From Erythrobacter ani (GTDB taxonomy: Bacteria > Pseudomonadota > Alphaproteobacteria > Sphingomonadales > Sphingomonadaceae): a stretch of DNA of 64,000 nt. Positions 4,232 through 20,679 of the stretch are shown one piece after another. The position numbers were made by a program, and so were the translations under genes. The stretch is from positions 1,178,001 through 1,242,000 of the forward strand of contig NZ_JAGSPB010000001.1 in NCBI RefSeq assembly GCF_019204025.1, written 5' to 3'. Each line of letters begins with the position of its first letter. The stretch's first letter is position 1. The notes beneath the pieces were generated by a model that worked only from the letters and a program-made list of their open reading frames with translations, was not told the DNA's origin and ran no database searches.

Positions 4232-4347
4232 GGCAGCGTGATCCCTTTGTGTTGATCGCTGTGGAGAGAGACTCGTGTTGACGAACGCCCTAAGGGGGTT
4301 GGGACGACTTGAAAAGTGGTGAGAGTGCCTTCACGACAGCGCCTCTC

Positions 4348-19934: not shown

Positions 19935-20165
19935 ATGGCAGACGAAATCCGCATCCCGAAACTCGGCATGAGCGCGACCGAAGTCACTCTGTCGGAATGG
20001 ATGTTCGGCGAAGGCGAGCAGGTGTCCAAGGGTGATATCATCTACACCGCGGAAACCGACAAGACGACGGTCGAGATCGAGGCGCAGGCCTCCGGCACGA
20101 TCCATCCGACGGGCGAGGAAGGCACGAAGTACAAGGTCGGCGACGTGATCGGCACGATCGGGTAG
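19935..20165 (+). CDS. Stand-alone lipoyl-domain protein
   Basis: A 76-residue protein consisting of one biotinyl/lipoyl domain: IRIPKLGMSATEVTLSEW at the start, and the hairpin ETDKTTVEIEA with the lipoylated Lys at residue 43. It ends right after the second half of the barrel (YKVGDVIGTIG). No peripheral-subunit-binding or acyltransferase domain follows. It should carry acyl groups or electrons for the E1 pair, but must use an E2 encoded elsewhere or work without one. GGGGGAAC precedes the ATG. Confidence 0.88.
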   Translation: MADEIRIPKLGMSATEVTLSEWMFGEGEQVSKGDIIYTAETDKTTVEIEAQASGTIHPTGEEGTKYKVGDVIGTIG

Positions 20166-20169
20166 TCTG

Positions 20170-20679
20170 ATGCCCTCGAATAGCGAAACGGTAGGGCGAC
20201 AAAGCACGCCCTCGAATAGCGAAGCGGTAGGGCGACAAAGCACGCCCTCAAATAGCGAAGCGGTAGGGCGAAAAGAACGCACCCCGCGCGAAATCCAATC
20301 TTCCATCTATGCCGCGGCGGGTGCGCGCGACTGGGAGACGGTGGAATCATTGCTTCACGCCGATTTCGTGCTCTACGAGGCCGATTGCCTTCCCTTCGCA
20401 GGCGAATGGCGGGGCAAGGACGCGCTGCAGCGCTGCGCGGCTGCGATGTATGGTACCTGGGCCGAGGCCAAGGTCGACATTCACGACATCACCGGCGGCG
20501 ATACGCACGCAGTGACAGTCCTCACGCTGACAATGACACCCAAGGGCGCTGACGGCCTTGGGGGCGAGCCCTTCAGCCAGACCGTGTGCGAAATGGGCGA
20601 ATTCGAAGATGGGCTGATGAAGAGCCTGCGCATCCATTATTTCGATGCGGAAGAGGTGGCACGGAAGGCAGCCGAATAA
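20170..20679 (+). CDS. NTF2-fold (SnoaL-like) protein with repeat-derived N-terminus
   Basis: A 169-residue protein. Residues 1-34 are a repetitive lead (PSNSEAVGRQST units) encoded by three tandem 36-base repeats. The rest (IQSSIYAAAGARDWETVESL onward) is an NTF2-like cone with an acidic, aromatic interior. Members are isomerases, dehydratases, hydrolases or ligand binders. No other in-frame ATG lies between the repeats and the fold, so the repeats seem to be translated. It follows the lipoyl gene by 4 bases and overlaps the next ATG by one base. Confidence 0.75.
   Translation: MPSNSETVGRQSTPSNSEAVGRQSTPSNSEAVGRKERTPREIQSSIYAAAGARDWETVESLLHADFVLYEADCLPFAGEWRGKDALQRCAAAMYGTWAEAKVDIHDITGGDTHAVTVLTLTMTPKGADGLGGEPFSQTVCEMGEFEDGLMKSLRIHYFDAEEVARKAAE
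20172..20273 (+). repeat. Three tandem 36-base repeats with GCCCT...AGGGC ends
   Basis: Units at 20172-20207, 20208-20243 and 20244-20273 (last one incomplete) are nearly identical. Each starts GCCCTC and has AGGGC 22 bases later, so each can form a small hairpin; units 2 and 3 carry GCGAAGC between the arms. The unit is 12 codons long and keeps the reading frame of the NTF2-like gene. Confidence 0.9.

Follow-up and report, generated by a model that had tools for sequence, protein, structure and literature searches.

Tandem copies of a short dispersed hairpin element as a probable N-terminal extension of a SnoaL/NTF2-like protein in Erythrobacter ani

The window analysed here, i.e. a 64,000-nucleotide stretch of the Erythrobacter ani genome (contig NZ_JAGSPB010000001.1, positions 1,178,001 to 1,242,000), contains three repeat units at the start of a gene for a SnoaL/NTF2-like protein. 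These units are likely to be tandem copies of a short, non-autonomous hairpin element that is dispersed among alphaproteobacteria, spreads and amplifies, and survives within genes as a tolerated linker. Well over 100 distinct sites carry the element, its arms covary, both empty and filled sites are found, and its in-gene copies use a single sense frame.

A repeat search of the window showed that the array spans 20172-20279 and consists of three 36-nt units arranged head-to-tail (spacing 36 and 36), of which units 2 and 3 share 97 and 78% identity, respectively, with the first copy (Table 1). As originally predicted, all three 36-base units carry GCCCT...AGGGC arms, with GCGAAAC inside unit 1 and GCGAAGC inside units 2 and 3, and they can be read as 12-residue, PSNSEAVGRQST-type repeats in the open reading frame at 20170-20679, the predicted translation of which begins MPSNSETVGRQST-PSNSEAVGRQST-PSNSEAVGRKERTPRE. 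The proposed span of 20172-20273 had the correct start, but the third unit reaches approximately 20279; similarly, the units lie at the lipoyl/NTF2 boundary but do not span it, because the array starts just past the junction (lipoyl stop codon at 20163-20165). As this stop codon is located 4 nt before the ATG, the lipoyl and NTF2 genes are probably translationally coupled. Rfam covariance models gave no match to this region of the window at E up to 1, nor to related loci at E up to 0.5, and no CGTC-type REP was found within the window.

Table 1. Features identified at the lipoyl/NTF2 junction (positions are those of the window)
Feature	Position	Strand	Description
Lipoyl-domain protein, 76 aa	19935..20165	+	Upstream gene; stop codon 20163-20165
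ATG start codon	20170..20172	+	AT belongs to the target sequence, and G opens unit 1; orthologs share the junction TAATG/GATG
SnoaL/NTF2-like protein, 169 aa	20170..20679	+	SnoaL_2 domain at residues 47-150 (PF12680, E=4e-13)
Unit 1	20172..20207	+	Hairpin core 20172-20197, tail gacaaagcac; reads PSNSETVGRQST; own-genome covariance-model match E=1e-4
Unit 2	20208..20243	+	Hairpin core 20208-20233; reads PSNSEAVGRQST; own-genome covariance-model match E=1.9e-9
Unit 3	20244..20279	+	Hairpin core 20244-20269, diverged tail gaaaagaacg; reads PSNSEAVGRKER; own-genome covariance-model match E=9.5e-11

The consensus form of the element is G-N-N-C-T / CAAGTAGCGAAGCGGT / A-G-N'-N'-C, i.e. a fixed loop of 16 bases flanked by 5-bp arms that are variable yet complementary, giving a 26-bp core in a unit of 35-36 bp. 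In Sphingomonadales copies, a tail of some 9-11 bases comes after the core; it reads RACAARRAC(TC), close to AACAARRACTC, and this tail is weaker in viral and plasmid copies. A single unit is a weak hairpin with arms of only 5 bp (DNA -4.1 kcal/mol, z -1.4), and fold stability was dropped as evidence for the element, the folding energies not being significant; the unit is regarded as more than a chance sequence because the family is dispersed and its arms have undergone compensatory changes. When the arms were left free, GCCCT/AGGGC, GGCCT/AGGCC, GCGCT/AGCGC, GTCCT/AGGAC, and CGCCT/AGGCG types were found, and viral contigs add types such as CCACT/AGTGG and CGCCT/AGGCG. In 30 loci taken from a search with the loop alone, the flanking arms were perfectly paired in 20 of 33 cases and formed at least four of the five pairs in 30 of 33. 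In a larger collection, pairing was above every shuffle at positions 1-26, 2-25, 3-24, and 4-23 (four of the five arm pairs); since a model that favours pairing supplied part of this collection, the loop-only search is the cleaner test of covariation. GCGAAGC forms an extraordinarily stable mini-hairpin in DNA, as the original prediction had pointed out, and GC-GAA-GC is among the most conserved parts of the element, nearly invariant, with its positions paired in 125-126 of 127 distinct cores. To judge from these sequences, it is the structure that is conserved and not the sequence of the arms, and the loop is nearly invariant.

The search of the genome and its relatives that had been suggested for the unit located it at many unrelated loci, and it is thus not unique to the NTF2 site. 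A strict 24-base pattern was present in 21 of the 61 congeneric (Erythrobacter) genomes, and the exact 16-base loop gave 112 matches in 40 of 61 genomes, versus 0 for the reversed control in each search. A covariance model built from 30 units found matches in 58 of the 61 congeneric genomes, with a maximum of 42 copies each. Seven matches at E up to 1 were identified in the E. ani genome itself: the three array units, one copy in another 169-aa protein, two near rtcB, and one weak match. The locus directly upstream of rtcB (L199, 3021-3229; C1:657445-657628) contains three decayed units. Beyond the genus, the model matched sequences in further genera of the same family and in one other Sphingomonadales family. 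Similar units are present on Rhodobacterales plasmids, and an 18-base loop core occurs in 31 stretches of IMG/VR viral contigs; INPHARED phage records gave no match. This distribution refutes, through the covariance-model search, a purely local tandem repeat of the microsatellite type, generated by slippage and without wider relatives; three near-identical head-to-tail copies at one site would fit such an origin, but the unit lies at more than 100 unrelated sites in the genus and beyond, and we give this explanation practically no credence.

In total, 143 distinct sites were collected by a full census in five genomes and from further loci, and most of them are intergenic. The intergenic copies do not favour gaps of any one type (unidirectional, convergent, or divergent), which argues against a role as terminators; a 3'-UTR or terminator role was rejected on the ground that placement is not biased to convergent or unidirectional gaps.

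Empty and filled versions of the NTF2 site were distinguished in an alignment of the ortholog junctions. The repeat is absent in most species; in many, the gene opens with (M/V)STPRE or MASPRE, and the start codon often overlaps the lipoyl stop. In about nine (L005, L006, L007, L013, L014, L017, L041, L049, and L183), with the genome of E. ani among the filled ones, one to three units are placed exactly at the start codon and in frame. In most of the filled orthologs, the ATG is composed of a target AT and the first G of the element. In L017, the start is a GTG that overlaps the lipoyl stop. The spacing in L014 and L041 is 35 bp; here the first unit is not in frame, and the protein starts at an ATG within its tail that is in frame with the second unit. 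The last unit is in frame with PRE in all nine filled orthologs, including E. rubeus (L006), in which the palindrome has been lost by decay and the reading frame has been kept. The genomes compared are GTDB species representatives, and differences in copy number are therefore differences between species.

Within the NTF2 frame, no ATG, GTG, or TTG is present between 20173 and 20340, and the next such codon is a GTG at 20341, past the conserved PRE motif. Initiation there would cut away the conserved helix 1 and the PRE..YAAAGARDW block; the simplest reading is therefore that the repeats are translated. In the AlphaFold2 model, residues 3-34, corresponding to the repeats, have pLDDT values of <50 and are predicted to be disordered, and the NTF2 fold begins at the helix of residues 39-51; the PDB neighbours of the protein are NTF2-like proteins and limonene epoxide hydrolases. 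The array is very probably read as a floppy N-terminal protein tail, QSTPSNSEAVGR being one example of a predicted repeat-derived peptide. The units could otherwise be an untranslated, REP-like array of regulatory RNA hairpins in the lipoyl-NTF2 leader, with the NTF2 protein starting downstream at a non-standard codon. Consistent with this possibility, the family is mostly found outside genes, and the repeats lack coding-like codon usage, their codons scoring poorly and GTG 20341 being the best-scoring start by script; furthermore, Di Nocera et al. (2013; PMC3733652) warn that many N-terminal REPs may be untranslated. We consider it quite improbable, given the parts of the protein that such a start would delete, the preservation of the frame with PRE in nine filled orthologs, one of them despite its lost palindrome, and the absence of a gap-orientation preference among intergenic copies. 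A repeat unique to this site, combined with a downstream non-standard start, had been named as the outcome that would speak against a coding element; uniqueness does not hold, and the downstream start is unlikely.

Copies were found in frame in a wide range of other proteins. The hosts confirmed by Pfam are GlyQ, PheS, PutA, UvrB, RarA, DciA, an SLC13 transporter, a carotenoid oxygenase (RPE65), cyclophilin-type prolyl isomerases, and a DUF1905 protein, and those assigned by PHROGs in viral contigs are two terminase large subunit families and a primase. The two terminase hosts (L424, 1023-3071, minus strand; L411, 9820-11901, plus strand) belong to different families, and several contigs share one copy near the N-terminus. 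In GlyQ, exactly 12 additional residues are present in 2 of 30 orthologs, and 5 of 30 PutA orthologs are longer by 5 to 12 aa. The PutA additions, found in L251, L252, L254, L255, and L279, differ in length between species (+5, +7, +9, +11, and +12 aa), are always whole codons, and look as if an old insertion were being trimmed. The other coding copy of the E. ani genome lies in a second 169-aa protein; two relatives have a copy in a different loop of this protein, again of exactly 12 residues and with a possible duplication of 6 bp that encodes TR.

The in-gene copies use one phase of the sense strand, CCC TCA AGT AGC GAA GCG GTA GGG CAA, which specifies PSSSEAVGQ. The encoded peptide, PSSSEAVGQQG, is hydrophilic and Ser-rich, and the translated repeat is predicted to be disordered. 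Three frames of the consensus are open, one in the sense and two in the antisense direction. All 14 host sites are in the one sense phase (with equal likelihood for the three frames, P is about 2e-7, host sites from related species, e.g. the carotenoid oxygenase pair, not being independent). Since the antisense peptides, ALPLRYLRA and RPTASLLEG, are hydrophobic or basic, selection against antisense insertions would be a sufficient explanation. Two candidate antisense coding insertions were rejected as shadow ORFs, namely L219, which is the end of aroC, and L348, which lies upstream of an exonuclease III-like start; the ORF of a third candidate, L177, is of the same kind. Coding arrays have periods of 36 or 39, and non-coding arrays mostly of 34-35. 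All 6 coding arrays have periods that are multiples of 3, compared with 10 of 39 non-coding ones (Fisher p=0.001), although this test includes some orthologous coding arrays and is in part circular, since arrays that disrupt the frame are never counted as coding.

Dispersal, empty and filled NTF2 orthologs, and in-frame copies elsewhere support the original proposal of a mobile or amplifying element that has extended a coding sequence, and from here we infer an act of movement and an enzyme behind it. At the lipoyl/NTF2 junction, an ancestral copy would have been inserted such that the target AT and the first G of the element made an ATG. Slippage or unequal crossing-over would then have generated three copies, the frame being preserved only by a period divisible by 3 (36), and the repeats would be translated as a disordered N-terminal extension that the enzyme tolerates. 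Copies within genes would survive only where frame and orientation yield a harmless linker. As the loop is conserved and the changes in the arms preserve the structure, something may recognize the folded hairpin; in what is the weakest step of the scheme, this would be single-stranded DNA or RNA, recognized most likely by an enzyme supplied in trans and possibly carried by phages. No consistent target-site duplication was found among the sites; most direct repeats flanking the element consist of tail sequence left over from tandem copies, with a few possible duplications of 6-9 bp. An excess of direct repeats at a 35-bp offset was likewise attributed to the tails of tandem neighbours, and only isolated candidates, such as L428 and L393, remain. 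More tentatively, and with considerable doubt on our part, the element might represent a previously undescribed class of trans-mobilized DNA hairpins with a fixed 16-base loop and free complementary arms, the folded single strand of which is recognized by an enzyme and which spread between alphaproteobacteria and phages; with a disordered linker as the product of the only sense-open frame, coding sequence, including start codons and essential enzymes, would serve as their habitat.

Two other explanations concern what distributes the element. It could be a functional site of phages and their hosts, e.g. a signal for replication, packaging, or RNA processing, whose spread is driven by selection for what it does and not by selfish propagation. 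The invariant loop and covarying arms in hosts, plasmids, and viral contigs, the terminase-gene copy common to several phage contigs, and the known stability of GCGAAGC are compatible with such a role, but patchiness among orthologs at a given locus, tandem amplification, and insertions in unrelated proteins resemble the spread of an element, making this explanation unlikely. It could also be a classical REP, GTAG- or CGTC-tagged, moved by a REP-associated tyrosine transposase (RAYT); like the REPs described in PMC3733652, including those in E. litoralis genes, it is short, palindromic, present in many copies, and sometimes intragenic. A RAYT-moved REP is nevertheless very unlikely, since the element ends in GNNCT and AGNNC, with GTAG only internal and no CGTC terminus, and has 5-bp arms and a 16-base loop, not stems of 8-9 bp and loops of 4-5 bases, and its arrays are head-to-tail. 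In addition, the Y1 transposase (PF01797) is found in 4 of the 61 congeneric genomes and missing from 57, including that of E. ani, and the genome richest in it (G002, six matches) has almost no element copies. Dependence on a RAYT was rejected because the transposase is absent in most element-bearing genomes.

The preferred reading of a dispersed hairpin element places it beside several known repeat families. RPE-1, one of the Rickettsia palindromic elements (RPEs), is about 100-150 bp in length. Work on RPEs by Ogata, Claverie, and colleagues is cited in PMC3733652. The earlier comparison with Rickettsia proved apt, because in-frame copies occur in many other proteins: in both cases, palindromic DNA is in frame in many unrelated, mostly house-keeping genes of alphaproteobacteria, adds a short peptide, and is absent from empty orthologs, and the present element has every mark of an in-frame coding palindrome (dispersed, in frame in unrelated genes, with empty orthologs). 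Going by their descriptions, it differs from RPE-1 in being much shorter (26-bp core, 35-36-bp unit, 12 aa), in its fixed loop, covarying arms, and head-to-tail arrays, and in its presence in free-living marine hosts, plasmids, and phages. Miniature inverted-repeat elements (MITEs) are similarly short and non-autonomous with inverted terminal repeats, to which the arms correspond, whereas the present element is far shorter than 70-300 bp and no consistent target-site duplication or parent transposon was found for it. Intragenic CGTC and GTAG REPs are also short stem-loops, mostly intergenic and in some cases inside genes; according to Di Nocera et al. (2013; PMC3733652), genes for repair and for tRNA synthetases contain them, and examples come from tRNA synthetase and truB genes of E. 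litoralis and from R. conorii uvrB. The same paper defines CGTC REPs by a CGTC end, an 8-9 bp stem starting with A/T pairs, a 4-5 base loop, and a CCA tail. The present element has no end tag, CCA tail, or RAYT, its arms are short and its loop long, and its copies are head-to-tail and not head-to-head dimers. Its behaviour places it with the RPEs and intragenic REPs, but it fits the definition of neither GTAG nor CGTC REPs. A literature search with the 13-mer AGTAGCGAAGCGG and the peptide SSSEAVG returned no relevant paper, and the sequence of the element appears to be undescribed in the literature searched.

Coding palindromes are best known from Rickettsia, where their spread has often been linked to the relaxed selection of intracellular life. 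The present element is short, cleanly defined, and RPE-like, and it is found in free-living marine bacteria at many filled and empty sites, including essential tRNA synthetases and phage terminases; the entry of such elements into reading frames and the neutrality of the added peptides are therefore amenable to laboratory tests. The fixed loop and covarying arms could also serve as bait for an enzyme that moves or uses such elements.

A longer in-frame insert of about 120 bp (40 aa), containing several hairpins, was observed in L396, L400, L401, and L402 (about 1420-1900 of each locus), at the same position as the short element of E. ani in the other 169-aa protein. Some of its hairpins have compensatory changes, and in L396 it ends with CAAAACAAGACTC, like the tail of the short element; searches of Rfam and of viral contigs gave no match to it. 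The short element of L291 and L294 is immediately preceded by a hairpin similar to the final one of this longer insert (stem-GGA(G/T)-stem-CGGAARACAAAAA), and the two kinds therefore form mosaics. The BIMEs of Escherichia coli, which are mosaic REP clusters, likewise combine different hairpin units, but the present element differs from them in its sequences, in having no known RAYT, and in its frequent coding insertions. Finally, a copy of the element and the 3' end of the chorismate synthase gene, aroC, overlap in two species (L163 near 2557 and L219 near 4283-4299), where the copy seems to supply or move the stop codon.
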